64,000 nt of DNA from Blepharisma japonicum (taxonomy: Eukaryota; Ciliophora; Heterotrichea; Heterotrichida; Blepharismidae). The DNA lies in NCBI GenBank assembly GCA_949751835.1, contig CATKHK010000011.1:327-64326 (forward strand). Direction: 5' to 3'. The notes beneath the pieces are model-generated. The model worked only from the letters and a program-made list of their open reading frames with translations. It did not search any database and was not told the origin of the DNA. A program made the translations under genes and the position numbers. This document shows positions 102 to 34,483 of this stretch, in pieces. How positions within the stretch are numbered: the stretch's first letter is position 1; each line of letters opens with the position of its first letter.

Positions 102-368
102 GCTAATCTTTAATCTTTATTTAAAAATAAATAATAAAAATTAAGTCTTCTTGATTTGTCTATTTTTTATGGCTTTTACTCTATTTAATATTTCTGCTAT
201 TGAAACAGTATCTGATTTTATAGTAACTTTTTTTACCTAAGTGACTTGTGGTAATTCAACTTCAGCAAGAAATGATGTGCTCATCTAGCACATTTGTCAC
301 ACAATGCTTGGAGATTTTTCTTTTTATTCGCTAACAAGACTATATCATCTATATATAATAATAAATAA
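102..368. other. Subtelomeric AT-rich spacer
   Basis: Short AT-rich stretch between telomere and first gene-like sequence. No intact gene is visible. On the minus strand, 284 to 141 reads as 48 codons starting ATG AGC ACA and ending TAA, interrupted by one in-frame TAG (a true stop here). No 15-nt GT..AG intron removes that TAG. It looks like a broken small gene or a chance open stretch. Confidence 0.5.
141..284 (-). pseudogene. Possible broken 48-codon gene fragment
   Basis: From ATG at 284 the minus strand reads MSTSFLAEVELPQVT, then TAG, then VKKVTIKSDTVSIAEILNR and on to TAA at 141. The composition looks coding, but the internal TAG cannot be spliced away by a 15-nt intron. No family is recognised. 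It may be a fragment left during chromosome-end formation or germline decay. Low confidence. Confidence 0.2.
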
Positions 369-773
369 TTAGAATTTGAAGAGTAGGGAGGGTGTGATTT
401 TATATTTAGCCACTTGCCTTAACTTTTCAAAATGGTCTCTGATTATTGTAGAATAAGAATCAACTTCCCATGTGAGCTCTTCAAAAATATTTTCTAAGCT
501 ACAAAGAGTTTGGGTAAAGGAAGCTATCAATTTTGCCTTTTTTGCATCAGTTTTAGACCTTTCTTCAACAAGAAAGTTAAGGACTGCTTCCTTTGTGTTC
601 TCAACAATTTTTACGAATAGTGATCTAAAATTATGGTATTCGCTACTAGAATCGGAATGTTCCGTTAAGTGCTTTTTGCAACTATAAATTTCAGGAGTAG
701 TGCAATTGCATGAAAATTCAACTTGACTCTGACATTGTAGATTGAAGCATTTTAGAGTGCTCATATTTATCAT
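369..773 (-). CDS. B-box-like zinc-binding protein, telomere-proximal, probably shortened
   Basis: A 134-residue protein. The start is at 773 (MINMSTLKCF) or at the second Met at 764. Residues 9-41 carry a Cys/His pattern (CFNLQC, FSCNC, YSCKKHLTEH) that suits a B-box-like zinc site. A helical stretch follows, ending at TAG-free TAA 369-371. In B-box proteins such a zinc site and helix normally precede a larger C-terminal domain such as kelch, NHL or SPRY; none follows here before the telomere. I infer that the protein was cut short close to the chromosome end. A kelch protein lies at 58329-59114, but there is no direct evidence of a link. Confidence 0.5.
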   Translation of the reverse strand: MINMSTLKCFNLQCQSQVEFSCNCTTPEIYSCKKHLTEHSDSSSEYHNFRSLFVKIVENTKEAVLNFLVEERSKTDAKKAKLIASFTQTLCSLENIFEELTWEVDSYSTIIRDHFEKLRQVAKYKITPSLLFKF

Positions 774-1075: not shown

Positions 1076-4000
1076 TTAATTTTCTTGATTTGGAGCTATG
1101 CTTTTAGCAGAAAGATCTAAAATTGGAGCATACTCTCTGCTGAAGCGCCTTTCTGGCATACTCTTAGAAATGCTTAATTTTCTCTCCCTCATATCGGAGC
1201 TAGCTCTTTCAATAAGATTTTTTCTTCTCTTGCTGTTTAAAGACTCTCTTCTCCTTTTATTGTTAGAATCAAATTCAGGAATCCCCGTCTGTATATCAAG
1301 AGCATTCCTCAAATCAGCACTTCTTAGCTTGATCAACTCATCATCATTTGCAGAGTCTTGGTTTGCAATATCAATTGGCAGGCCATCATGTTTAACAATT
1401 CTCTTTTGCAATTCTTCCAAAACATCAGGGTATTTTTCAAACGATTTCATTAAATCTTTTTTGTCTAAAGAATAAGTATAGCACATACTTTTTGCAATAA
1501 CAGAAAACGTAGACTTTACTGAGGTTAAAAATTCCAGATCGCCAATAAGAGATCCTTTTCTCAGGGTTTTCAAGATTGTTTTGCCATTGGCAGATATCAG
1601 AGCAATTGATCCTTCAATAATGAAAAAAATTTCATCACATGATTTTTCTTTATAAATAATATTGTCTTTTGGCAAAAAAATTTTAGGCTTTAAATATATT
1701 GAAATCTGTTCAAAAAACTTTCGGGAATCTTCGAACTGAAAATATGGGACTTTTTCAAGTATAGATCTGCTGCATTCGAAAATTATGGACTTTGAAATAT
1801 TCCGAGGCAGGTATAGAAAGAGATTTCTATAGTCAACAGACCCATACACAACATTTAAAGATGTCGTAAACGCTTGATAAGATTCTAATTTCTTTATTAA
1901 ACCATGAAATTTTTCTGAAGAACTAGCTACACACATCGGAGATTTCAGCTTTTCTATATAATATTTCAAGTCTGATTGAGGAGTTGCAACAGCAGTTGCC
2001 ATCAGCCCAAAAATGACAGCATTCATTGTGTCTCCAAAGAAAATAAAAAAAATGGTTCAAGTTCTTTCAGAATCATTTGCCTCAAGCATGAATCCGCCAT
2101 ATCCAGTGCAAGTGAGGATATTCAGAACATGGAAAAGTGCTCAACTATACTGATTCCCAATTTCTGAATTTTCAAGATCGTTATCTTTCACTCATGAAGG
2201 GTCTTTTTCATTAAGGCTGTAATAGAAAAATGAGCAGCTCATCAAATGAATCAAGGCCAATACACAAATCATAGTTTCCAAAATATTCAATTGAACTGAA
2301 AATTGTCTTAACCCATTTCTTATTTTAGAAAACAATGTCACAAGCCTAAATGTAGCTACCAGCCTCAGCAGCCTTAAAATGGTGATTAACACTATAGGAT
2401 CTTCAATCTGTTGACTTGCAAAAATTATATTGAATGGTGACAAGGAAAAGATATCTAAAGTAAAACAAAGAGAAGATTCTTTGTAAATTTTATCTTTATC
2501 ACTTCAAAAAAAATAATTCTTGAAGTTAACAAGAATAAAAGCTGCAGAGATCAATAAACAAATAATCTCTATTGTAAATAAAAATCAATTATACTCCACT
2601 TCAAACCCAATTTCTAAGGGCAACTCAAAAAGAGTGTAGGTAAGAAAAATCATATAAAGGATGGTAGAAGAATACCAGATATTAGAAGATGGTTTTAGAA
2701 GATCTTCTGATATAATTGCTTCCAGCAGCTTCTGGATGTTAGCGTAGTATTTTTTTGAGATTTCTGGGCATTCATGAATCTTTGAGTTTATCTTTTCAAA
2801 GGAATTAATAGCTTCATCTAATGTTTCTGAAGAAAAAGTGGTTATTAGCCTATTTTGTGCAAACTCAGCTATGCTGCTATACCACTCTGGGTAGGCTTCT
2901 CTTAGATCCTTGATACATTTTTCTTCTAAAATACCTATTTTGGATACTTTGGATGCTATTATATACGTTGGGCTGCTTTTTATTGAATCTATCATTGTTG
3001 GAATTTCTCCAAAATGATCCCCAGGGTAAAGGTTTTCTACTGTCTTTTTACCCTTAAAATCGATAACACGCACTTCCCCATCAAGAATGATAAATAAATC
3101 ATTTCTTTTTTCCCCTGCATCAATAACTGGGTCTCCCGCCAAATAAATTTCAATTTTCAAAAGTCTAAGAATTGACTTCGCTAAAGGCTCATTAATGCCA
3201 CCGTCTTTATTTTTAAAGATCTGAGCATTCTTAGTAGCTTCTAAATATCTATAAAACAGAATATCTGACATCAAGGATGGAGGAAGTTCTTTTAAGATAT
3301 TTTCATCATAAATCCCTTTACTTGATCTCCATAAGAAATTAAAATAATCGTTTACTTTCTCCATAAAAATACTGCCTAGCTGCTTTTTATCTATAAAATC
3401 TTTTGCATACCTGTAGCTATTTTCAAATGTAAATTTTGCATCAGACGACGAGAGTTCTGCAACGAGCGAAGTTATGCTTCCAAACAAAATTGAGTAGGCA
3501 AAAAGTCCTATTAAAAATACAAAGCAGTTATAAGCTTTTTCAGAAGGTGAATTGCTTACAACCCACCCATATCCAGCATGCGAAACCACAATTGATGATC
3601 AATGAAATGCGTGGTTATAGACTGTATCTCTTGTTAGAGGTGCAGAGCTGTTAGTTCTGTATTGCTCAGGCTGAGGAGATGGGACTCTTGATAGTCATGA
3701 GTGCATCACATCTTCTCTTTTAGCACATTCTATAAAATAAGATCCACAAAAATGATTTACCATTACATAAATCACCACTACTTCAATTATTCGAAGATAA
3801 GTGAAAATTTTGAAGTGATTCTTTTTCATATAGAAAAAGAAGCCTGCAATATAATAAAATCCTGTCAGCCTAATTGTTGAAAAAATCGCTACAAGTTCTC
3901 TTGGCTCTGTAAGATCACTTGACTTAAAAATCAAAGCAAAAGGAATTGCAAGTATTAAATTGTGAATGAATTTATTGAAAGCTCTGCTGGGGTTGGAAAA

Positions 4001-7000
4001 TTGAAACCTCTTTTCTTTTGCTAAAGCTGGAAGAGACCTCAGAGCACGGCGAAGTTCTAAATAGTAGACACTATTGAGAAGATACAGTAAAACAGATAAA
4101 ATTTCTAAACTCAATAAGGCAGGGCTATATTCGTATTCAAAAGCGATTTGAAGAGGAGTGAAAATGAAATTATATAAGTTCAAGATGAAGTATATATAAT
4201 GTTTGGCAGGAGAACTATAGAGATTGAGAAAACTAAGGCTGATATTTAAACTCTTTACAATAATTTCACCTGATGGAAAGCTTTGGACTTCTCTGGAAGT
4301 CATCATTGTCTCGTTTTCAACTAACTCAGACTTTTCTTCTTCTTTTAAATTAGTCGTGATTGCTTCTTCATTTCTGAGATTATTTGGGAACTCCAAGCTT
4401 TTCCTTTTTTCAATTATCATCCTACTCATGCTTTCTCTTTCATCAGCTACTTTTCTCACCTTAATAGAGAACTCTGGATATGTTTCCATGATGAAATTAA
4501 AATCATGCTTTAAGAGGACAGCAATGGTCACATCAGTGCTTGCCCTGACTGTCGCCATCCTTGCAGAAGAAAAATTGCTTAAAAGAGCCATTTCTCCAAA
4601 AACATTCCCTTTGGTCAAAGTATTCAGAACAATCCCAGATGAAATGATTTGGACTTCTCCGTCAAGAATGAAATACATCTGAAGACCCAGCTCGCCCTCA
4701 GTTATTATTTTCTCATCTTTGCATACCATTAAAAGCTTGAATTTTTTCACTATTGCCAAAATGGCTCCTTTTTCTTCTTCTGGGAAAAAGCCTGACTTTA
4801 TCAGACCAGAAAATAAATAATATTTTATATCAGTTCTTAAGGTTTCGGGAAAATCTAGCATGATTTCTTCGTCGTCACAGCCTTGGAGTTTACTTCAAAG
4901 CAATTCATAATAGTCAAGCACCCTTTTCTTTAGTTCTTTTGAAAGCTTGCTATGGCTCATTCAGCTCTTGATGGTCTTTAGCTTTTTGGTGTGCTCTGTG
5001 TAGGTTTTATAATAATTTGAGGCTAAGCTTGCAGCCTCACCAATAATAAATGCTGCCAAAATCATAGAAAATACCATGAAAATGATATTCAAACATTTTT
5101 CTGCGACAGTAGGTACTGGCACATCTCCATATGCCCCAGAAGTGCTTATTGAATATCCGAAATACAGCAAATTAACATATTGATCGTAAATAGGGATATC
5201 TATAATTATTTTTCCAGGTTCATAATAATTATTTAATGGAAACTGACGAATGAAGTTTTGATCATTGAATCTTGCGTCAGGATTAACCCAGTATTGAAGT
5301 TTTCCTAAATAATAAGAGATGCAGGCAATAAAATGGCTGTAGTAGATTGTCACAATAAAAATAAGAAGTAGTCTAGAATAAGACAGGGAGGCATAGGAGT
5401 GGGATAAAAAACTTTGGGAAAGCTTGAGGATTCTTTTTGCTTTGAAAAGTCTCAGAATTCTGAAAAAGGCGGGCACAAATTGAGCTGATCCTAAACCTGT
5501 ACAGATAAAATCTATTGGGACAAGAGATACCAAATCTCACCATAAAAAATTATTTACATAATTCATCCTGATCGATGGAATATCGTCTATGTAGGTTCCT
5601 AATTCTGTATATATTGAGGTGTATAAGTGAGTAGGTATATCAATAAAATATATAATATAAGCAATAATATCAATTGGGAGCCATATCCCATCTGAATGAT
5701 ATTGGAATGCGATAGCAAAGGGAATATAAAATAAATAAAATGCAAAGCTTAAATATAGCAGTAGGCTTCATGCATAGAAGTAAGGAGAAAAAGCATCAAT
5801 TAAAAATTTTGCATAGGACTCATTATTTCTTGCAGAAAAGAATCATTCAATTCAATTTCTCTCTTTTCAAGAAATTGCTCGATTTTGCAGGCTTTCTTCT
5901 TCAAGGTGTGCTTTGACAGGAGACTCGGGATTTGGATCTTCTGTCAGGTTTTCTTCTCCGAAATCCAAATCTTCAACTTTTGTAGTTGCCAGTCTTTGGC
6001 GTGCGACTCTCATTAAATATTCTTGGTATTCTGGGAACTCATTGAGTATTTTTCAAAGATCTTGCTTGCATATTGATGATACCATCGCTGCACTATAAGC
6101 TTTTACAGATACAGTTCTGAGCATATCCAAGAGAATTCCAATTTCTCCGAAATAATCACCTTCATGCAAGTAAGCAATTGCAATATCAGAATCAGCTGCA
6201 AGCACCTCCACGACCCCTGTTTTTATAAAGAAAAACTCATCTGGTACATCAGCTTGCCTTATAATGTAGTCTCCTTTCATAAAAACCTGCAATTTCAAAC
6301 ATTCAGTCATTGCGAGAACAAATCCAGGGCGAGCTGATGAAAATAATTTTATTTTTGGTATCAGATCTTCATTCATAGCTTCAGAAATTTCGTTTTTAAG
6401 AGAACTTGGAAAATCCTCTAAGAAATTCACATCAATAAGGTAAGAAAACCGGCTTCTAATTGACCAATAATAAGCGAAAACTCGATCCTTCAATCTTGGA
6501 CTCAACTGTCTGAGTTTACATCATTTTTTGACTCTTTCCAATTTCTCTTGGGCCTCGAATTCTTTGAGATTTAAAGTGCTCAAAATGAAAACGATATTCC
6601 CAGATATCCAAGCACACATAGAAGCCCCGATAACCATAATAAAAGAAGATGCGTATTTTTCTGCAAGCGTGAATGGAGTTGTATCATTATAAGCTATAGT
6701 TGACAAAGTGGCAGTAGCCCAAAATACTGCATCTGTATAAATTTCATAATTTTCTGCCCCTCCGTCAATCCAAGGCTGAAGTCATGTCCCTTGATTTCCA
6801 CAGTCTATTTCGACTCTTGCCACAAACAGTAGCAGCATCCCACAATAGTGTAAAGTTCCCAGTAGTAGAATTAAATTTTTGCAAATTCTCATAAAATACC
6901 CTTGTGGAGCATTTGCAATTATTTCTTGATTCGAAAAAAAGGTTGAGAACTGGAAAAGTCGTAGAAGCTTGAGAGATCTGAGAGCTGCAATAGTGTACCC

Positions 7001-7462
7001 ATGCAAATTCATTCCAAAAAGTAACGCCAAAAATGAATATGGGACTGAAGACAGACAAAGGGATGCTTTTACCAAAAGCATCTCTTTTTCATGAAGCATC
7101 CACATTCTTGTTCAGATCTTGGAGTTTCTGAAAATAAATCGAGAGATGTAATCGACAAGTAAGGCCAGCTCAAAAATAATCTCCAAAGCCAGCCAAAATG
7201 ACCATGGGAATCCTTTGATTCCTAAGAAGTAAGGAACTGTGAAAAGGTTGTATAGGTTTACTGTAAATATTAGGAATGACCATTTGTTCTGAAAATCGCT
7301 TTGTTTGCTTGATGCAAGCTTTGCAAGGGTTGGTTCTAGATTTTCTGAACTTGGCTTGGGTCTTTTCTTTTTGATTTCTCAGCCGCCACTAAGTTGTTCA
7401 AAACCAGGATTATCAATTCCTTTTTCTATTGAATTTCTCCTGGCTATGATTGGGTTAATCAT
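1076..7462 (-). CDS. Single-chain four-repeat CNBD potassium-type channel (tetraKCNG/CNGK-like)
   Basis: One open frame of 2128 codons from ATG 7462 (in-frame TAA just upstream) to TAA 1076, with many TGA codons read as Trp. It holds four units, each with six membrane helices, a pore loop and a cyclic-nucleotide-binding domain. Approximate residues: repeat 1 TM 50-280, CNBD 357-465; repeat 2 TM 557-823, CNBD 894-1003; repeat 3 TM 1084-1330, CNBD 1430-1520; repeat 4 TM 1600-1824, CNBD 1914-2004. Filter segments differ: TIAYND (254-259), SGAYGD (775-780), SHAGYGW (1294-1300), TCTGYGGF (about 1784-1791). S4 is basic in repeats 1, 2 and 4 and weak in repeat 3. The phosphate-binding Arg is kept in CNBD1 (R449) and CNBD2 (R968) and lost in 3 and 4. 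Known relatives with this layout are invertebrate sperm CNGK channels; most CNG, HCN and Kv channels are four separate subunits. Likely a plasma or ciliary membrane channel gated by cyclic nucleotide, voltage or both. In-frame 15-nt introns cannot be excluded. Confidence 0.9.
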
Positions 7463-7891: not shown

Positions 7892-10800
7892 ATGATTAAA
7901 TATAAAATGAATAATTCGAGCCTCTTTGAACCTCTACTTGAGAAGAATCTTAATTCATCAAATATTTTGGTTCAAATGAGGCAAGAATCTGTATCAACGC
8001 CTAAGCTATTTACAGAAAATGGAACTGATCCTGAGCTTTTATCCCTAAAGCAAGCAGTAATTAGCATTTCTACCGAGTTCGAGAAAAAGCTGCCTCATGG
8101 AATCAGTCTTCCTTTCAGTGTGGAGGAGATGATTCCATTTTCAGACCAAATCCATTACCTAGTATCCACCAGAGAAGGAACGATTCTTTACCTTAATATT
8201 TCAACTAAAAGCTTCAACGACAAAAAAATTTCAGCTGGCCCTTTCTCGATAGTTGTTTTGGAAAATGAAAAAATTGCTTATTTTTCAAGGGAAAATGAAA
8301 TCTTATGCATCAGTATCCCTTCACTGGAGTTTAAACCATTTCAAAAATTTGAGGGCAAGAGTCTAATTTGTTTAAAAGGTTCTTGGGATAAAAAAAGTTT
8401 AATTGCTCATTTTGATAATGAAATTACTTCAATAAGCTTTTCTGACCCAAGAGAAGTAAAATCGTTGATCATAGGCAATTTTACCAGCATAGCTATTTCA
8501 AGTAAAGGTAATTTTGCTCTTATATCCTCTGAGGATCAACTAGTGCTTTTGTCTTCTAAGTACGAGAAAATTGGTGAAGTAGCGATTGCCCCAAAAAGCC
8601 TCAAATTGAAATATTCACCACAACTATCAATGATTATTATTAGTTACGTAACAAAAATAGTTATTTTAAATGCAGAAACTCTAGAAAATATCCAAGAGAT
8701 TAAAATATCTGAAAATGAAGTTGGAGTCTTCTCTGTGACTAATGATGAGCATTTTATTTTGTTTCCAGATAGAGAAGTTCTGCATTTCTATGATTTGAGG
8801 AGCTTTCAAGATAGAGAAACAGTAAACATTGATAATTTTCGAATAAAATTTATTGCTCAGAGCATGGACAATAGTTCTGTTTTCATTAATGGGCCAAATA
8901 GCCAGCTTTACATTCTAGCTTATCCTGTGTTTGAATATGAAAAGTCTAAAGACGTCATTTACGCTGAGCTTCTGGATAGAACTAAAATGCTAATCAAGCA
9001 TGACGGATATTTCAAGACCTGGGACTTTGAAACTGATAAAACAGAGAACATTGTTGAAATTAAGATAGGAGGCTGGGAAGTTATGGATCCGGAAAACTTT
9101 ATAGTTTGGAGCAGAAGTGAAGTTGGCTTTAGTAAAATAAACATTCCAACTAAATCAGTCTTAAAAGTTGCTTTAGACAAAAATTCTTATGAAGTGATAA
9201 GATCCACAGCATTCAGCCCTGACAAAAAATTTTTTATGACTGGAACAGAAAAGAGAGTGTTTTTATGGGACTTTGAATCATTGCAAATAATTAAAGAATT
9301 CAAAGGCCATGATACCACTACATGAATAATGTGCTTTTTGACTAATTCAAATGCGATAGCAGGAATGGCTCAAAACTGTTCTATAAGGATATGGGACATT
9401 GAAACCACGAATGAAATTGCAGTCATCAATGAAAATATAAGCACCTATAGCATGAATATAACTCATAACGAAGAAATGCTTATTGTAGTCACTGTTGATT
9501 CATTGATCAATATTTGGGATTGAAGGAAGAATATTCGTCTTCATTCAATAAAAGGTATATATCCAGCTATTGTTGATGTCATGATAACGGAAGATGATAG
9601 ATTCATGATTGGATTTTCCCGTGATGGGAAGGTTCGATTTTTCAGCCTAGAGACCTTCAATCTAATATTTTCGTATAAGTTTGAAAACATGATAGATATA
9701 AACTTTCTGCTAGGAGAAAATCATATTTCTTATTTATATAAAACTAAAACAGAAATTCTCGGGGAAGTGACTGAAAAAACTAAGGTGGTCATCAAGAAAA
9801 ACCCACTAAAAGTTAGCAAAATTACATGTGCAGGCCCAGGAAATGAGTATGAGTATATGAAGTACGTCTCGAAGCTGCTAAAGAGTAAAGAGGTTGATTA
9901 TAATCCTGAAATGGATGAATGAATAATTTTCCCTTATATGATCAATACTCTACATCTTTATGCGTACTGCAACTATCCAAATCACTTGAAAAAGGCGCTT
10001 AAAAATGGTTCATCAATGATTAATAGTATTTTTAATAAAAATCCTTTATCAATTGCAATGTTAAAAGGATTCAAAAATTGTATCAGCTCAGTCATTTCAA
10101 CACTTGATAATTATCTAGTGATTCATCCTTATTCCTTGAAGAATTTGAGTATTGATGGCTTAATCAAACTTAATCTTTCAAGTTGCAGTTCTTTAGTAAC
10201 ATTTTATGAATCAATATTTAGAAAAGATGCAAGTGAACACCTAGCCAAATTTTGCGGTACCTCCGTTCAGCTTCCAGTTCAATTCTTATCAAAAAATATT
10301 TACATTGAAAATTGCAATCTTCTTAATAAAGAAGCTTTAAAAGAACAAGAAAAGCCTATTGTTTTCATCTCTTCATATGTATTGCTGGATCTGACTGTTG
10401 GATCACAGAAATCAATTGATTTTTTATATAGTATTCATTACTCCCCAAATCCAAGCATCATGATGACTTCCCTGATTCAAGAGATCATTCATTATAAATG
10501 AAGAAAACTCAGCTGGGTAATGCATCTCCAAGCTCTGATCTATATCGTGTATATGCTCTTGCTTTCTTTCTATGTTCTTTATTTCATTGAAAACGATAGC
10601 GTACTATTCATTTTATTTGGTGTAAGCGTGATTCTATCACTTTACGAGGTCTACCAATTCTGAGCCTCTCCACTGAGCTATCTCAAGGATTTATGGAATT
10701 ATATAGACATTGCAAGAACCATTTCCTCAATCTTATACTTAGTTATATATCTAGCTTCTTCGACTTCAACTATAAGGCACGAGGTGCTCTCGTTTTTAGT

Positions 10801-11461
10801 CATAATTTCTTGGATGAGAGGAATTGCTTATTTTAGAGTATTTTCAAATACACGGTACATGGTGAATCTAATTTCAGAAGTAATCAAAGACATGACGACC
10901 TTTTTAATTCTGCTGGCTTATTCAACAATTTCTTTTGCTTTTATCTTTTTGGTGTTAGATAGCAATAATCCTGAGTTTATTGACTATTTAAAAATATCTT
11001 ACAGGTTTGATGTGGGAGATTTTGATACGACCGATATGAACTCTATGCAATGGATTTGCTTCTTTTTGGTCTCTATGATTAACATGATTGTTATGTTGAA
11101 TTTGCTTATTGCCATTATGGGGGACACTTTTGGGAAAGTCCAAGAAAACTATCTAATTGCTGATACACATGAGCTTTTAGATATGATAATTGAAATTGAA
11201 ACAATGCTAATTAAGAACAGAAATGCTTCTGATCCTTGCTACTTCCAGATGTGTATTGAAGATAATTCTGATGAAATGAAGGGTGAAGGATCCAGATTCC
11301 ATTCATTGAAAAAAAAAATTAAAGCTCTCCAAATTGAAAACAAAAAAACTAATGAAGAAATCAGCAACGTTAAAAATCTTGTGGAGAATATTCAAAAAGA
11401 GGTGAGAGAAGGCTTTGAAAAGCTTTCCCTAGCCATTTCTGTAAGGAACAAGTATGAATAA
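7892..11461 (+). CDS. WD40-repeat / TRP-type ion channel fusion
   Basis: An open frame of 1189 residues once TGA is read as Trp; an in-frame TAG directly precedes the ATG. Residues about 60-660 form beta-propeller repeats, with clear WD endings such as SIRIWDIE and SLINIWDW (the second W is TGA). Residues about 683-740 look ankyrin-like (NTLHLYAYCN, NPLSIAMLKGF). From about 870 to 1090 come membrane helices ending in a pore and S6 typical of TRP-family cation channels (MIVMLNLLIAIMGDTFGKV). The C-terminus (about 1125-1189) is coiled coil. TRP channels carry cations in response to physical or chemical stimuli; the propeller may be a docking or sensory platform. It lies divergently next to the four-repeat CNBD channel. 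The extreme 3' end is repeated as a fragment at about 12715-12890. Confidence 0.87.
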
Positions 11462-12890: not shown

Positions 12891-14894
12891 TTATTTAAGA
12901 TTAGTTGCAGATCTACGAAAATCTACCAATGAGCTTTTTCGTTTTGCCACTCTGACTGGTGAATCAGAACCTTTGCTCTCTTTAGGCACCATAGTCCCTT
13001 GTCTTGAGCTTGTCATTTTTCTTGGTATCGCCATGCATGTTGTAAACGCAGGCTTATTATTAACAAACACGTCCTGCAGAATTTTTGCTGCTTTTTGTGG
13101 AGAAACGTCCACTTTTCCTTTTGTCTGCTCATTAACTACTTATATCTTACCAATAGTGCTTGCTAGTTTTCCCATAAAGGTTTTTCTATTAGGGTTAGAT
13201 TCAGCTTTTTTAATTGCTGCAAATTTTTCTAGCTCAATAACTGTATAAGCATCAACAAATTCATCAATTTGCATGAAACCTCCACCAATTCTGATAATAA
13301 TTTTACCATTTTCTATCTTAATAAACACTTTTTTGGATCCAAAAAGATAGAGGCCTTCGTCTTCCCTTACAAATGGGACTTCCAGGGGCTGCTCTCGAGT
13401 GTTCATATATTCAGCTATTGCAGCGTCAACAGGATCGTCTTTTACTGGGACATACACTGGTCTGGCTTTTTGCATTTCTGCAATCATTTCTCGGAGGATC
13501 TCGATTTCAGCTTCTTTCTCTGAGACAACTGAACATACTTTATTGATAGTTCGCTGCTGGCCTAATGCTTGTTCTGATTGGGCTAAAATGTGCTCACTCA
13601 TGCCGTCTAGTTCTTTATAGACTTGCTTATGGATTTCTAAGGTAAACTGGCTGACTTGATTTAGCTGGTCTTGGATTGCTGAGGAATCGTGATGGAGGAT
13701 TAAACTTTCTTCTAACTGAGCAATGTGGGTGTTAAGGTCCTGCTGCTTATTGTAGGAATGGGTGAGGTCTTGTTTGAGAGAATTTATTGAGTTTTCAAGC
13801 TTATTATTTTCACCTTTGAGTGATTGATTTTTATTGAGAATTTCATTTTTCTCTTTATTTAATTTTGCTATTTCCGCTTGGAATTCTTCATTAATGGCTT
13901 TGATTTTCTTATTTAATGCTACACATTCTTCTTGGTGTGCTTTTGAAAGTTTCTCCATTTGGAGCGCTTTATTCTCCTGATCCTTTAAGTTCAATATTTC
14001 TCTATTTTGGCTTTCATTTATAGCTTTGAGATTGATAATTTGATTAGCTTTATCCTCATTAAGAACATTCAGTTCATTGATTGCTTTTTTAGCTGAATTA
14101 AGTTCGTCTCTTAAATTTAAGTTATCTTGCATCACATTTTCTATTTCTCTATCCATTTCTCTTCTTTTTTCTTCAAAATCGCTAATACTTTTATTATACA
14201 AATTCCTTAATTCACCTCTTTTCTTTTCGCCTTCTTTTATATTAAATTTCAATTGAGAAATCATTTCTTGCATATTATCAAAATTTCTGCCTTCTGCTTT
14301 GATTTTTTCTAATTCTGCTTTTGTTATTTCTAGCTCACATTTAACTTTTTCTTCATCCAGGATTTTACGTTTTAACTTAAGATGCTGCTCCATTAGAGAC
14401 TCGATAGCTCGGTCTCTTTCTTTTTTCATTTTCTCTAAGCTCTCGTTTTGTTGTATTTTTATTTTTTCTACATCTTCGAGAGTTTCTTTTATTGTTTTAT
14501 GCAGAATCTCTCTAGCTGAGATTCCTTGTTTGGTTTGCTGGTTGAATTCTTCAAGACGAGTCTCGATTGTTTGGTAGGTCTTTAGCTTTTCATTTAGGCC
14601 TAAGATGAGAGAACGGAGGTGTTCTGCTTCTTTTGCAGAGGCTTGGCCTCTGCCATTGTGAAGGAAGTCTAGATCTAAAGCTAACTCTTGGCTTGTTATA
14701 TCCGTTGAAATGATTATTTCAGGATGAAGGGCTTGCGCGATTTCTAGGATAAGAGTATGAGTCTCTTTTATATTACTAAGAGCCTTATGATTTGAAGATA
14801 CTTTTTCTTCATAAATTGTGCAAGACTTGCATGAGTCTAACAACAGATTTTCTGAGTCTTTTAATCCTGCTATTGGAACCTCTTCACTAGTCAT
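12891..14894 (-). CDS. Long coiled-coil protein with GAS2-related (GAR-like) domain
   Basis: 662 residues from two exons: 14894-13151 and 13135-12891, joined across a 15-nt intron (GTAAGATATAAGTAG) at 13136-13150. Without the splice the frame would stop at TAA inside the intron. Residues about 90-480 are heptad-rich coiled coil. Residues about 513-552 match the GAR microtubule-binding fold (EGLYLFGSKKVFIKIENG, then IIIRIGGGF), where GAS2-family proteins carry the YRFG...VMVRVGGGW pattern. The tail is basic and Ser-rich. By family knowledge it should bind or crosslink microtubules, possibly at basal bodies or cortical fibres. The terminal exon is duplicated as a fragment at 11491-11665. Confidence 0.8.
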
Positions 14895-18528: not shown

Positions 18529-21500
18529 CTAAAAACAGTGCGGAGGTGTCCTGTCTCCAGGAGAAACTGCCCGCTTTATAGGAGACTCGATTTTTGATCT
18601 TATACTGAGAGGGGAGTTCAAAAACAATGAATTCAGCTGTGAGTTTTCTGACATCTCTGTAGCCAGTGTTGATAATTTAAGGTCCTGCAAGTTTTTTAAT
18701 TGTATCTCACATTTGTTTATTCCTTTCATCCCAATGGATTCTTGCAACTCCATATACCTTGTTGTTCATTCTCCTATGACCTCATTAAGCTTAATCACTT
18801 CTAATTGTTTTCTAATCAGTTCTTTTTCACAGTTTTCTTTCAGCTCATAGAAAAATGTTTGTCATCTTTCTCTCTCACCTTTTTGGGCTGTAAAAATATC
18901 ACTCTCCAGCTTTTCAATCATTTCTTGGTACAGCTTCGTCTGCTTTCTAAGCTCCTCATTGCCTTTTTTCAACTGAATATTATACATCTGCTGCAAATGG
19001 AAATTTGTTTCTAGCGCTTTGTACCTCATATAGAACTCAGAAGTTTCTATTGAAGGAGGTTCCACCCAGGAACCGTGAACACCTACAATTGAGTGTGAAT
19101 CTGAAGATTTCACACTTGGCTCTGCCTTAAATTCTGCCTCTAGTCCTTTAGACTTTTCCTGTGACTTTTTGCTAGTAAAAGACTTTATTAAATGACCTTT
19201 ATTTTGACCTGTGGAGTCAGAACTATTGCGCCTTCTTGGTTTCTGATCAATTTGCTCATAGAGTTTTCTCATGTGTTGATAAGATTCATGCAAATGATCG
19301 AGCATCGATTCTAGTGATTTTATTTCTTCTGATTGAAATCTGCAGAGGCTTCTTTTAATTTCATACTTGTAATTGACTAAATTAAGCTTTCAGTTGAGCC
19401 CTTGCATGCAACGTGTCATATTTGCATTGAAAATCCCAGCTTGGATGACTTGGTTTTTTAATTGGAAAACGGTGATGTCTTTTGATAATTCTGCGTTAGA
19501 CTCCAAGGCTTTTTGCAGTTCTTTTGCATAGCTACTTGTGTTTATCAAGCTGTGAGGCTCAATTATGATACTTCTGGGCGTTAAATCGAGCTCAAAAGTT
19601 TCAGTGGCATCACAACCAGGGTCAACAGAAACCTCATCAACTTCAGTGATAACTGGAAACTCCTGACCTGTAATTTCTGAGCGCTCATCAAATTCGATGC
19701 ATGTTAAATCATGAGTCTTAGTCTGGCTGTCTACAAAAGCTTTGAATTTTGAGTCAATTTCGTTCAGAGATTTGGAAAGACGCTTAATTTGTCTGTTTAA
19801 GCTTTCATTTTGTCTTTTCAGCAGCCTGTTTTCAGATGATTCTTTATTGATCAATAATGCAGTTCTATGGTAATTTTCATAGTACTCGTGAGACTGTTGC
19901 TCTAATTTAAGTCTTTTCTCTTTAGAAGAAGCTAATTTTGCTTCAAGATTTCTGACTGTTTCAGTCAAAATTTGATTTTCTTCTTCTAAAGACTGTGATT
20001 TTTTTTGTAGCCTATCTATAGCTCTTTCTAGATCTTCTTGCATATTGTCTCTATGCTGAATATAGCTGACAGACTCCAACTCATATTCAAGCCCTGATCT
20101 ATCAAGACTACTTCCATAAGAAGAAGCTAAGGAATCCACTTCATAAATAGAATTATTTCCTCCTTCAAGTTCTTCAATCGGATCTCCAAGGGCAGTAAAT
20201 AATTTTAGGTCGTTTTGGAACCTTTTCATTGTTGATGATAAAGAGCTGCTGCCTGAGCCTTGGAAGGAAAGCCTCGGAAGAGGCGAATTTGATATAGAGC
20301 TGCTTAAAGAACTTCCAGGCTCTGTAAGTAGCCTTTCTTCTTTGAGAAGCAAAATTTCAGATTTTGCATTAGTGAGCTCAGCTCTTAGCTGTTCTATTAG
20401 CTTAATGTAATTTTCTGGTGAGTTTTTGATGTTGATTTTCACGTTGTTTTTTATTGATTTGGCCCTAATCGCAAATTTCATGGTATTTATCGTTTCTTCT
20501 ATATATTTATTCGAAGGAGAACAAGCCACTATTAAATTCGTTTTATAGTTTCCTCCTAAAGACTCTTGCAAAATCCTTGTCAGCTTTGAATCTCTATACG
20601 GAATATGATCATTATTTAGTACTAATGCATGAATCACATTTCCTAACGCAGACAGTGACAAATTAATTTTTTTGGCCTCTTCCATATTATTTCCGGTAAC
20701 TCCGGAATGATTTACCTTTTCACTTCCTGCCAAATCAACTAAATTTAAAATCCCTCTTTTTTCTGAATCATTCGGCAATTTTTGTAAAACTTCTAGTACA
20801 AACATCATATGGGATCTACTGGACGTTTTGTTCAGCTTTGTAGACGCCACTGTTCTCATAGTCTCCCCTAGCGCCAATAAGTCAAGCAACCCTTTTTCTG
20901 AGGTGACACAAACTTGATTAAGCCCTTGTACATAAATTCCTCGTCTTGGGCATTCTTTTATGCTGAGACTTTTGGTTACATTATCTAAAAGATCTTTAAT
21001 TGTTTCTTTATAAATTTCTAGCATTGAGCATTTTAATGTGTACTCGATTTCTCCGTTATCTTGCCTTACGAATTCAAAGATCTGGCTGGCTGCTCGAGGA
21101 ATAATGCCTCGGAATTCTTCATCATAAAAATCATAGCCCATCATAGTGTAAGTTTTGCCTGAGCCAGTTTGCCCATATGCAAAAATGGTCCCATTGTAGC
21201 CATCAAGGACATCTTCTATTGTAGGTCTTCCTATGAATTCATAAACTTCGGATTGATGAGAGTTTGGGTCAAAAATTCGGTCTAGTTTAAAAGTTTCCAT
21301 TTCTTTTCCGTTTGGAATTCCAACAGTTTTGTCGTCAATGAAGGAAATAATTTCTTGGACGCCTGGAAGGACCTAGATAAGACATACGATTTCGAAGTCT
21401 ACGAGTGGCCTAAATCTCCCCACTACTTTGACATTGCTGGAACGTGAAAAAGGCAACTGAGTGACTGAGCTTGCGGAGTCGTGCCTTTTTGAGTCACGTC

Positions 21501-21579
21501 GAAATGGAGCTGTGGAATCACGCCGCTGAGGAAACATGGTGTGGCTTCTGAGAAGTCCTCTTTCTTTGTGAGCTGACAT
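18529..21579 (-). CDS. Kinesin-like motor protein A (N-terminal motor)
   Basis: 1011 residues from two exons (21579-21388 and 21372-18529) across a 15-nt intron at 21373-21387 (GTATGTCTTATCTAG), phase 0 within the first motor strand (RPLVDFEI/VLPGV). The motor has P-loop GQTGSGKTYT (about 131-140), switch I SSRSH and switch II DLAGSEK; the neck and stalk are coiled coil. The C-terminus ends in PGDRTPPHCF, closely matching PGDKTPPQFF in the adjacent paralog, so the tail motif is conserved. It is an ATP-driven microtubule motor. The subfamily is not certain; an N-terminal motor with a long stalk suggests kinesin-1-like or a ciliate-specific group. Confidence 0.92.
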
Positions 21580-21826
21580 TATGCTTATTGGGAAAAGATA
21601 TTTATGAGCTTAAAATAAAGAAAATGTGTAAATTAATGGTAGACAATTTTAGTATACTTTAGAGCTCTGCTCGACTGGCTTCATATAAAATTGTGTATCA
21701 AATTGTTAGTATTCAAACATTAATATAAAATGATTTTTAAAAAATATCTCAGAAAAATCCAAAAATAGATATATTTTGGAAAGATGTATTTTCTATATAA
21801 TTAACTTAGACTACACTTTTTATGAA

Positions 21827-24814
21827 TTAAAAAAACTGGGGTGGCGTCTTATCTCCAGGCAAAACATCACGTCTTATTGGAGGTCCAGGACTTGCCCTTC
21901 TATTGCTATTCAAAGGCGAATTCTGAAACAACACTTTCATATATGCCCCATTGTCAGGAATATTTAAAGTTGATTTTGGCGTCACATCATCTTCTTGTTT
22001 AAATATCATATTTAATTTCTTTGGTCTATTTCCAAATGAATCTTGAAGCTCCATATACCTCGTTGTTCATTCCCCTAAAACATTATTCAGTTTTGCAATT
22101 TCCAGCTGCTTTCTGACTAGCTCTTTTTCACAGTTTTCTTTCATTTCGCTGAAAAATGACTTTCACCTTTCCCTTTCCGTTTTCTGTGCTTTAAATATAT
22201 CGCATTCTAATTTTTCCAGCAATTTTTGGTACTGTAAGGCTTGGTTTTTCAATTCTTGGTTACTTTTTTTTAGCTGGGCATTATAAAGTTGCTGAAGATT
22301 ATAGCTGGCTTCTAAAGCCTTATATTTCATAAGGAAAACTCCTGAGTCTGCAGAGTCATTTTCAATAAAAGACCCAGGGCAAGAAATGAATTGTGACTCA
22401 GAAGACTTCATTACAAATTCTTGGTGGGATTTGATCATCTGCATATTATTCTTCAGCAGGCTGCTTGTAAAGGATCTAATAAAGCGGACTCTAGGAGTTG
22501 TAGTTGATTCATTAATTAATATTCTTCTCGGTCCTTGATCAATTTGTTCTTGCAGTTTGACTATTTTTTGGTATGATTCGTGCAAATTGTCAATCATCGC
22601 TTCAAGTGAGCTAATTTGTTCGCATTGGTTTTTACAAAGGTTTCTTTTTAGCTTGTATTTTTGGTTAACTAAATTTAATTTCCAATCAAGCCCATTCATG
22701 ATCCTTGTGATATTAGAGTTGCAAATTCCTGCTTGTATCACTTGATTTCTAAGCTGATAAATCGTGATATCTTTGCTTAACTCAGCGTTGTACTCTAAGG
22801 CGTTTTTAAGTTCTTGTGCATAAATGCTAGTATTGACTAGGCTTTGGGGATCAATGAAAAGCTTTTTAGGTGATAGACAAAGCTCAAAATCGCCACTGAG
22901 GTCTAATTCAGTATCATGGCTTTCATTGGGAATTTCTCGCTCATGGATCTCTGATTTGTCTTCAAATTCGACAAAGGTGATGTCTTCTTCAAGCTTTGAG
23001 TGGTTTTCTATGAAGCCTTTATAGCTCTTGTCTAGCTCTTTTAATGCATTTGTAAGTCTTCTGACTTGTTTGTTGAGGGCATCGTTTTGTTTCAGTAATA
23101 ACGAGTTTTTGGAGGATTCTCTATTAATTTGCAAAGTAATTTTGTGTAAAGATTCATAATAATCATGAGCCTTCTGCTCAATCTTGAGCCGTTTTGCTTT
23201 AGATGAGCATAATTTTGCCTCTAAATGCTTAATTTTATCATTAAGAGCTTTGTTTTCTTCTTCCAACAATTCACATCTTTTCTTGGTATTTTCAAAATCT
23301 TGCCCAAGGCTGTCTCTCTCAGTGTTTCTCCCATCATTAGTTTCTCTATCAGTTAATTTCCCATCATTTTCAGACTCCAAAGAAGTCTTTTCACTTGTGT
23401 TATTAAAAGAGAGGGCTAATGAAGACTCAAAAATCGAGCTTTTTTCTTTATTTTCATCTAAAATGCTATCAATTCCTGATAAGATGCTGGAATACTGCCT
23501 TGAATTTTTTGGGCGGTCTTTTTTGGCTGACATAGTTGCTCTGAGGTTTTTTGAGAGCAATAAAGAGTTGTTTAAAGACTGATTCATTGAATAGTCACGA
23601 GCGGTCAAAGCTTTTTCTTCTTTTAGCAGAGATAATTCTGACTTAGCATTAGAAAGCTCAACTCGCAGCTGCTGGATTATTTTCATATAGTTTTCTGGGG
23701 AGTTTTTTATATTTATTTTCGCTTTGTTTTTCACTGCTTTGGCTCGAATGGCGAATTTTAGTGTATTTAAAGTTTCTTCAATTGACTTGGAAAAGGAGGA
23801 ACATGCTACAATTAGGCTTGTTTTGTAGTTACCACCTAAGGACTCTTGTAAAAGCCTTGTTAGTTTTGAGTCTCTATAAGGAATATGATCACTCTTCGAC
23901 ACCAATGCATGTATCACATTCCCTAATGCTGACAGCGAAAAGTTAATTTTTTTGGTTTCTTCCAAATTATTCCCTGTCACTCCTGAGTTACTAACTTTTT
24001 CGCTTCCCGCTAAGTCTACCAAATTTAAAATCCCTCTTTTTTCTGAGTCATTAGGAAGTTTCTGTAGCACTTCCAGCATAAAAATCATATGAGATCTTGA
24101 TGAGGCCTTATTCAGCTTTGTCGATGCAACAGTTCTCATAGTCTCTCCAAGAGTCAATACATCTAAAATATCTTTTTCACTAGAAATGCAGACCTCGTTC
24201 AGCCCTTGTACATATATGCCTCTTCTTGGACACTCCTTAATACTTAGTGCTCTATTATCAGGGTCAAGCAGATCCCTTATAGTTTCTTTATAAATTTCCA
24301 GCATTGAGCACCTTAACGTATACTCGATTTCTCCACTATCTTGTTTAACAGATTCAAAAATCTGGCTTGCAGCCCTTGGAATGATGCCTTTTGCTTCTTC
24401 ATCATATATATCAAAGCCCATCATTGTATAGGTTTTCCCTGAACCGGTCTGTCCATATGCAAAAATTGTCCCATTGTAGCCATCAAGGACATCTTGGATT
24501 GTTTGGCGTCCTATAAAATCGAAAATTTCAGCTTGCTTTGAGTTCGGATCAAAAATCCTGTCAAGTGTGAACGTTTCCATTTCTTTTCCGCAGGAAATCC
24601 CGATTGTCCTGGAATTAATAAAAAAGACAGGTTCTTCATTATCAGAAAAAGCCTATGTGATTTTTACAGTTTCGAAGTCTATTAGCGGCCTAAATCGAGC
24701 TAGGACTTTTATATTACTTGCTCTCGGACTTAGCAGCTGAGACGAAGAACTTATAAGCGAGGGTCGCTCACATACACTACTTTTGCTTCTTTGAGTTTTA
24801 CTTCTTTCTTTCAT
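21827..24814 (-). CDS. Kinesin-like motor protein B, tandem paralog of A
   Basis: 990 residues from exons 24814-24668 and 24652-21827, with a 15-nt intron at 24653-24667 (GTAAAAATCACATAG) at the same codon position as in kinesin A (RPLIDFET/AFSDN). P-loop GQTGSGKTYT about residue 116; SSRSH; DLAGSEK. A coiled-coil stalk follows, with the conserved tail end PGDKTPPQFF. It lies upstream of A on the same strand, separated by about 250 bp. The motors are close to each other while the stalks have diverged, which suggests duplication followed by cargo or localisation divergence. Confidence 0.92.
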
Positions 24815-33634: not shown

Positions 33635-34483
33635 ATGATTGGCTCCTCACATGATAATTTACCCTTCTTATTTACTTTAACCTTGCTCACTATAGTCCCT
33701 AACAGCTTTTTTGTATTTATTTCCAGATATTTATGACATAACGTAACTATATCAATCCCTATTCTTTCAGGAATTTTTTATATTGGAAGCCTCGTATTTT
33801 TCCTATTAACATCTTTTTCTGACCCAGGAATTATCCCAAGGAAAAAAGTCTTTCAAGCTCTTGGCGATGTCCCCAAAGAATTCACCGCAGAAGTATTTTT
33901 CACTGAATTCGGGAATCTTCATAAGTTTTGTGCCACTTGTGAAATATACCGTCCTCCTCGCTCCCATCATTGTGCAAAATGCGATAACTGTGTGGAAGTG
34001 TTTGACCATCATTGTCCATACGTAAATAACTGTATTGGCTTGCGAAATTACATATATTTCCTGATGTTTGTGATGAATTTGCTATTTTTGGGGATGATCG
34101 ATATATCTGGGTTTATGATTTTTTTGTTTTATAAAGCAGGGGATGATAATTTTGACTATAGCAAGCGATCATTAATTGAACAAAAAGAAGTAATTGCAAT
34201 AATTGTAGCGATTTTGACTATAGTTTCGCTTGCTTTTACTCTCTTTGTAGGCATTTTGTGTCTATTTCATTGCTCTCTGTGTGCTTCCGGTGAAACCACA
34301 AAAGAGAGGCTAAAAGGAGAATCCTCAGCTAAGAAATGTGCATTCTGCAGATACAAGAAAAGCTGGTTTAACAAAAGAATGAAGCTAAATGATTCACAAA
34401 TAAAAATTTTAATGACAAAAAGTACACCTACTTTTGAAATAGAACTAAATGATAGCAGTAAATCTCCTATTGACATAATTTAA
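33635..34483 (+). CDS. DHHC palmitoyl-acyltransferase
   Basis: 282 residues from ATG 33635 (an in-frame TAA lies upstream) to TAA 34483. Two membrane helices come first, then a Cys-rich domain (FCATCEIYRPPRSHHCAKC) with the active site DHHC at about 124-127, followed by PYVNNCIGLRNY and two more helices. TGA is used as Trp at about residue 35. It transfers palmitate to protein cysteines at Golgi or plasma membranes. Possible substrates in this window are proteins with Cys tails (36967-37695), but that is inference only. Confidence 0.93.

Follow-up and report, generated by a model that had tools for sequence, protein, structure and literature searches.

In CNGK (or tetraKCNG) channels, a single polypeptide carries four repeats, each with six transmembrane helices (6TM) and a cyclic-nucleotide-binding domain (CNBD) (PMC4749565, PMC7576140; these papers, and those named below, are cited for individual passages). 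The selectivity filters of CNGK are canonical GYG or GFG (PMC4749565), repeat 1 is paired with repeat 3 and repeat 2 with repeat 4 (PMC7576140), and the protein has been described as pseudo-symmetric, with four nearly identical domains and no obvious specialisation (PMC6259924). Sea urchin CNGK is gated by one cGMP at the third CNBD, which is reportedly its sole working CNBD (PMC4749565). A 2020 survey assigns four-repeat channels to metazoans and choanoflagellates, two-repeat CNBD channels to dinoflagellates and oomycetes, and in its passage on ciliates no tandem channels are identified (PMC7576140), while a 2013 paper reports three TetraKCNG-like channels in Ectocarpus in a passage that gives no repeat number (PMC3879662). 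Here we describe a gene from the heterotrich ciliate Blepharisma japonicum, located in a 64,000-nucleotide stretch of contig CATKHK010000011.1 (hereafter the window), that encodes one chain carrying four 6TM-pore-CNBD units. The best reading of this protein is that it represents a variant of the four-repeat CNBD channel plan, set apart from CNGK by what has been described for the latter.

The gene occupies a single ATG-to-TAA frame of 2128 codons on the minus strand, and its exact bounds, as claimed by the first-pass annotation of this DNA, were recovered from the open reading frame (ORF) listing once TGA was read as sense. The frame contains 19 in-frame TGA codons, and under translation table 11 the channel stretch is fragmented into short frames. 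Comparison of the channel with paralogous genes codon by codon yielded 118 comparisons at TGA, 36 of which set TGA against TGA and are uninformative. The other 82 comprised 34 TGG (Trp) codons, a single Cys codon and 47 codons for other residues, and because of this excess of TGG over Cys we conclude that TGA encodes Trp in the channel gene. The euplotid code (table 10), in which TGA is Cys, results in an identical frame but was rejected, since Cys stands opposite TGA in 1 of the 82 comparisons versus TGG in 34. The published genome of Blepharisma stoltei likewise has a UGA=Trp code, together with CCCTAACA telomeres and introns that are mostly 15-16 bp long (PMC9942806). Stretches of the form GT...AG within the frame numbered 18 of 15 bases and 10 of 16 bases, in a count made without a chance control. 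As the window protein, in a three-way alignment, nowhere has five extra residues relative to both paralogues within the repeats, an in-frame intron within a repeat seems unlikely, and one may lie within a linker.

Two further contigs of this genome each carry a full-length four-repeat paralogue, C124 with P0002 (57% identity, 2145 codons from stop to stop) and C48 with P0003 (48% identity, 2178 codons). The merging of separate genes by assembly had been named beforehand as an outcome that would overturn the single-chain reading; instead, the same four-repeat frame recurs in both paralogues. We therefore regard it as extremely improbable that the gene is an assembly artefact in which neighbouring genes were merged or stops misread: the sole circumstance pointing that way is that 19 TGA codons have to be taken as sense, and these stand opposite TGG-coded Trp, in agreement with the published Blepharisma code (PMC9942806). 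Identity among the three paralogues was 44-68% in the repeats versus 14-25% in linkers 1-2 and 2-3 and 34-48% in linker 3-4, with repeats 3 and 4 the least conserved of the four. Synonymous change between the paralogues was close to saturation (pS 0.69-0.82) and pN was 0.20-0.36 in all four repeats, which are all under purifying selection; with pS at about 0.75, dN/dS values are approximate, and several were not computable.

The domain content of the chain was established in several ways. A Pfam search with the whole frame returned four stretches each of cNMP_binding (E 5.6e-57) and Ion_trans (E 1.8e-31), and repeats 1, 2 and 4 also passed the Pfam cut-offs for both domains when searched singly. 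Bounds of the repeats were drawn from alignments (Table 1). The positions near 6053, 4961, 3695, 2585 and 2192, at which the reading frame had been said to be checked across the repeat junctions, are in fact in-frame TGA codons inside repeats (W470, W834, W1256, W1626 and W1757, respectively), and the true inter-repeat linkers are found elsewhere. Close to its end the basic C-terminal tail has an RR[FL]SRE motif, which matches the RRxS consensus of PKA/PKG.

Table 1. Parts of the four-repeat channel gene and the same-strand pairs of single-repeat channel matches. Filters are given in the order window/C124/C48; S4 basic residues are those in the aligned segment.
Feature	Position	Strand	Description
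Four-repeat CNBD channel gene	1076-7462	-	2128 aa, TGA=Trp, TAA stop at 1076-1078; based on ORF listing, Pfam, paralogues L004 and L005
N-terminal tail	7316-7462	-	Residues 1-49; 41% identity to each paralogue
Repeat 1	5948-7315	-	Residues 50-505; 6TM, C-linker, CNBD; S4 basic residues 3
Repeat 1 selectivity filter	6683-6700	-	TIAYND/TIGYND/RISYNS
Repeat 1 CNBD	6038-6289	-	Canonical phosphate-binding cassette FGEIG.LL...R[TS].SV; Arg in 3/3 paralogues
Linker 1-2	5822-5947	-	14-19% identity among paralogues
Repeat 2	4427-5821	-	Residues 548-1012; long S5-to-pore stretch; S4 basic residues 5
Repeat 2 selectivity filter	5123-5140	-	SGAYGD/SGAYGD/LGVYGD
Repeat 2 CNBD	4478-4723	-	FGE[MI]ALL...R[MVS]ATVRA; Arg in 3/3, next Thr/Ser lost in 2/3
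Linker 2-3	4217-4426	-	18-25% identity among paralogues
Repeat 3	2828-4216	-	Residues 1083-1545; S4 basic residue 1 in 3/3 paralogues; lengthened S5-to-pore stretch
Repeat 3 selectivity filter	3563-3580	-	HAGYGW/HAGYGW/HVGYGY
Repeat 3 CNBD	2897-3145	-	Ser in place of the phosphate-binding Arg; P0002 has Arg-Pro, P0003 the canonical Arg-Thr
Linker 3-4	2696-2827	-	34-48% identity among paralogues
Repeat 4	1379-2695	-	Residues 1590-2028; S4 basic residues 3
Repeat 4 selectivity filter	2093-2110	-	CTGYGG/CTGYGF/LTGYSF
Repeat 4 CNBD	1433-1678	-	GE changed to GD; phosphate-binding Arg replaced in 3/3
C-terminal tail, basic	1079-1378	-	RR[FL]SRE motif close to its end in 3/3 paralogues
Same-strand single-repeat pairs	G000:C43:93813-98148; C31:144137-148825; C67:132731-136666; C9:473604-477110		1.3-1.9 kb apart

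All four repeats matched CNBD channels in the PDB. Repeat 1, within the whole chain, aligned with SthK and 5v4s (LliK); repeat 2 alone aligned with hERG and EAG all the way from S1 to the CNBD (best E 2.8e-37), repeat 3 with SthK and hERG (best E 7.7e-24) and repeat 4 with SthK and HCN1 (best E 1.1e-24). For repeats 3 and 4, AlphaFold2 models were built from 28-row alignments that consisted solely of sequences of the same genome, including 16 of the 30 single-repeat channels examined below. With mean pLDDT values of 83.7 (repeat 3) and 79.4 (repeat 4), the models show S1 to S6 in order, along with a pore helix, the helices of the C-linker and a CNBD made up of a beta-roll and two closing helices, and the best Foldseek matches in the PDB were SthK for repeat 3 (E 3.3e-19) and human HCN1 for repeat 4 (E 1.6e-18). 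In both models one non-helical residue separates the helices that were assigned to S4 and S5, in keeping with the short S4-S5 linker of fewer than ten residues that is common to CNBD channels (PMC7576140). Pfam, the PDB alignments and the two models together indicate that each unit has the 6TM part, pore, C-linker and CNBD of this superfamily. The proposal in the first-pass annotation that four full units are joined on one chain is thus borne out by the four-plus-four Pfam matches as to number, but the units are not equivalent: their filters, the S4 of repeat 3 and the CNBD Arg differ.

This divergence of the repeats is large, with only 16-23% identity between the repeats of one protein. The canonical G[YF]GD filter was found in 0 of the 12 repeats of the three paralogues, whereas among the 30 single-repeat channels examined in this genome 29 have it. 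A GYG triad is present in repeat 3 of all three paralogues and in repeat 4 of two, and in none of the copies of repeats 1 and 2, while the filter Tyr is kept in all 12. The numbers of S4 basic residues (Table 1) are identical across the three paralogues; since these charges were counted over a gapped segment in which the repeats extend less far than the single-repeat rows (4-7 basic residues, n=29), only the contrast among the repeats was used. In addition, the stretch from S5 to the pore is longer in repeats 2 and 3. A further difference concerns the phosphate-binding Arg of the CNBD, a residue named as a ligand of the cyclic phosphate (PMC4749565), which is present in 3/3 copies of repeat 1, 3/3 of repeat 2, 2/3 of repeat 3 and 0/3 of repeat 4, and in 29 of the 30 single-repeat channels. 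Judged by their sequences, the repeats of the ciliate channel are specialised and not equivalent. Because the Arg has been lost from repeat 4 in all three paralogues and from repeat 3 of the window protein, it is likely that only repeats 1 and 2 bind cyclic nucleotides.

From these features we consider it quite likely that the protein forms a complete one-chain pore in which roles are divided between the repeats, and that it serves as a cyclic-nucleotide-modulated cation channel. Specifically, the four S1-S6/C-linker/CNBD units would fold into a pseudo-tetramer around one central pore, arranged like the four subunits of HCN, CNG, KCNH and SthK channels. The first two repeats, whose phosphate-binding Arg is present in all three paralogues, would most likely be the cAMP/cGMP sensors, and repeat 2, with the most S4 charges, would be the main voltage sensor, while repeats 3 and 4 would chiefly make up the remainder of the pore and gating ring. 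Since all four filters contain Tyr and none is a canonical G[YF]GD, a cation channel with an asymmetric filter is to be expected, the pore of which is probably K+-preferring or weakly selective and would be modulated by cyclic nucleotides. The latter are plausible ligands because the genome has 87 matches to the Guanylate_cyc domain. It is from the three genes that we infer the one-chain pseudo-tetramer assembly, the ligand-binding CNBDs, the selectivity, the voltage dependence and the cellular role.

Several observations weigh against this reading. When searched alone, repeat 3 passed the Pfam cut-off only for cNMP_binding, with Ion_trans_2 remaining under it; its channel part is supported by the whole-protein Pfam match, the PDB alignments and the predicted model. 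The Foldseek TM-scores over whole repeats were 0.37-0.48 by query length, with rmsd values of about 15-21 A among the rows listed, and because of these low scores the models of repeats 3 and 4 back the content and order of the domains, not their relative placing. A CNBD Arg is moreover no guarantee of ligand gating, as zebrafish CNGK reportedly has four canonical CNBDs and yet is gated by pH (PMC4749565). Finally, the non-GYG filters of repeats 1 and 2 could make the pore weakly selective or even non-conducting. In the extreme case the protein would be a pore-dead scaffold or sensor with a regulatory function, as the absence of G[YF]GD from all 12 repeats, so frequent in the single-repeat channels, and the almost uncharged S4 of one repeat might suggest; given the purifying selection on all four repeats, the filter Tyr in 12 of 12 and the GYG in 5 of the 6 copies of repeats 3 and 4, we regard this as distinctly unlikely.

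To place the repeats, a careful tree was built from the 12 repeats and 30 of the 72 single-repeat channels that the genome appears to encode, together with SthK and hERG. In this tree each repeat formed one clade with a support of 100/100, and within all four clades the order was ((window, C124), C48), supported by 94/75, 91/87, 100/94 and 99/91 for repeats 1 to 4, respectively. Since each repeat is one clade with the same internal order, the fused plan is older than the split of the three paralogues and has been passed on as a unit.

Genome searches with repeats 1 and 2 gave at least 97 merged places, of which 12 fell in the three four-repeat genes, a further 72 were of channel length and 13 were short. 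The at least 72 other channel-length places appear to be single-repeat. All of the 30 single-repeat frames examined had one unit each; 19 of them had enough flank to reveal a second one, and the remaining 11 sequences (L058-L068) were trimmed to about 1.4 kb and unable to do so. S_L012 is partial, and L025, L026, L048, L054 and L057 were dropped as repeats of included genes. One single-repeat channel, L065 (G000:C62:214280-215640), has a long branch and the sole non-canonical filter among the 30 rows. A separate genome search with PF00027, in which 150 of 394 candidates were scored, does not amount to a channel count; most of the loci taken from it matched just the C-linker/CNBD part of the repeats and may represent cyclic-nucleotide-dependent kinases. 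No bacterial relatives of repeat 2 were found in a bacterial scan.

Such an abundance of single-repeat genes bears on the possibility that single-repeat genes, through fusion or tandem duplication, gave rise to the four-repeat protein within ciliates. Five pairs of the 72 places lie within 4 kb of each other, and the four of these that share a strand (Table 1) are possible raw material. The open frames listed at these four pairs reach at most 717 aa, whereas a frame covering both members would require 1169-1563 codons. A join of the paired matches could be hidden by a frame-shifting intron, but in the four-repeat genes the linkers measure 0.13-0.21 kb, far less than these gaps. A two-repeat intermediate was not found among the channel-length places of the genome. 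The trees speak on both sides. In quick trees that were rooted with SthK and included one repeat at a time with 28 single-repeat rows (without S_L065 and S_L012), repeat 1 fell inside the single-repeat channels, grouped with 23 of the 28 (SH-aLRT 100), which would favour a ciliate-channel origin of at least that repeat. In contrast, repeats 2 and 3 were each sister to all 28 rows and repeat 4 lay outside hERG as well, and the careful tree put 29 of the 30 single-repeat channels on one side of a branch (93/90) with all of repeats 1-4 opposite. The placement of the repeats relative to the single-repeat channels is hence unstable between the careful and quick trees, and we hold an origin within ciliates to be possible, while leaning slightly away from it.

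The same data were used to consider a true CNGK orthologue, which would mean that the fusion dates far back in eukaryotes, that most lineages have lost the plan and that the ciliate copies have strongly diverged. Besides the shared four-repeat 6TM-CNBD architecture, this is compatible with approximately unbiased (AU) tests, in which pairing of repeats 1 and 3 (p 0.483), pairing of repeats 2 and 4 (p 0.218) and grouping of all 12 repeats in one clade (p 0.135) were not rejected. Neither CNGK pairing, however, is in the best tree, where repeats 3 and 4 are weakly joined instead (61/71; flagged as long branches meeting). Moreover, the filters of all the repeats are non-canonical, unlike the GYG/GFG of CNGK (PMC4749565), and ciliates had no identified tandem channels in the passage of the 2020 survey (PMC7576140). 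Orthology to CNGK is therefore rather unlikely in our judgement. The four-repeat plan, for which the first-pass annotation had offered an independent or a much older occurrence, probably arose separately from animal CNGK, as suggested by the filters, the asymmetry and the distribution, not by the tree. We give a little better than an even chance to the full proposal that heterotrichs, separately from CNGK, evolved an asymmetric CNBD pseudo-tetramer in which two repeats sense ligand, one acts as the main voltage sensor, one is devoid of a voltage sensor and the filter motif differs in all four.

The channel gene is subtelomeric on its contig: the window starts with telomeric (CCCTAACA)n at 1-101, and a single further CCCTAACA occurs at 33697. 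Just inside the telomere, an open stretch of 61 residues at 236-418 (-) contains YIDDIVLLA, which resembles the catalytic motif of reverse transcriptase. The divergent neighbour of the channel gene at 7892-11458 (+) encodes 1189 aa with TGA=Trp, in which a WD40 beta-propeller (about residues 370-600) is followed by Ion_trans (882-1086), so that the product is a propeller-channel fusion. Further into the window lie a gene for a GAS2-domain protein of 584 aa at 13143-14894 (-) and a tandem pair of kinesin-motor genes at 18532-24580 (-) with products of 923 and 917 aa.

The comparison with known systems sets published descriptions of CNGK beside a ciliate channel that is known here from its genes alone. 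Taking CNGK/tetraKCNG as the known counterpart, as had been done at the outset, was appropriate with respect to the shared architecture (PMC4749565, PMC7576140): like CNGK of sea urchin, fish, other invertebrates and Salpingoeca rosetta, the ciliate protein has four 6TM-CNBD repeats per chain. Unequal CNBDs are also common to sea urchin CNGK and the ciliate channel, and at the phosphate-binding Arg of the third CNBD, the ciliate sequences have Ser in the window gene, Arg-Pro in P0002 and the canonical Arg-Thr in P0003. We did not assign the protein to CNGK because it lacks two traits reported for that channel: its GYG/GFG filters, as opposed to 0 of 12 G[YF]GD filters in the ciliate repeats, and its near-identical repeats, as opposed to repeats that share 16-23% identity, are unequal in S4 charge and S5-to-pore length, and lose S4 charge and the binding-site Arg in particular repeats. 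No CNGK was found by name among the 60 listed of 185 PDB matches. Within open-licence papers, no four-repeat CNBD channels other than CNGK/tetraKCNG were found, and none from a ciliate appeared in the titles and abstract openings of the matches listed, which is no proof of absence. The two-repeat CNBD channels of the SAR lineage are similar in having fused, diverged repeats, with partial reduction of the CNBDs in dinoflagellates (PMC7576140), but have two repeats per chain, in contrast to the four of the ciliate chain, and TVGYG or near variants as filters.

Single-repeat channels, that is HCN, CNG, KCNH, plant SKOR/GORK/AKT and bacterial SthK, share the domain order, C-linker, CNBD and predicted fold with the ciliate repeats, and differ in having one repeat per chain and four chains per channel. 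Nav, Cav and NALCN channels have no CNBD and a different filter chemistry, namely an acidic or lysine-type high-field-strength ring; the ciliate channel has GYG-type filters and four C-linker/CNBD units. They resemble it in being single-chain pseudo-tetramers with asymmetric, differing repeats (PMC6259924). The four-repeat plan allowed the four quarters of the Nav/Cav pore to take on separate tasks, and the ciliate trio of paralogues with distinct repeats offers a second case in which repeat specialisation can be followed. Since the wild-type chain fixes the place of each filter, voltage sensor and CNBD, the number of ligands that open the pore, and whether fourfold symmetry is required by a K+-type filter, could be addressed without engineered concatemers. 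In the passages concerned, the four-repeat plan of CNBD channels is described for animals and choanoflagellates alone, and no specialisation is mentioned (PMC6259924, PMC7576140). If our reading is true, the ciliate protein would be an asymmetric pseudo-tetramer in a class whose sole known four-repeat members are described as symmetric.

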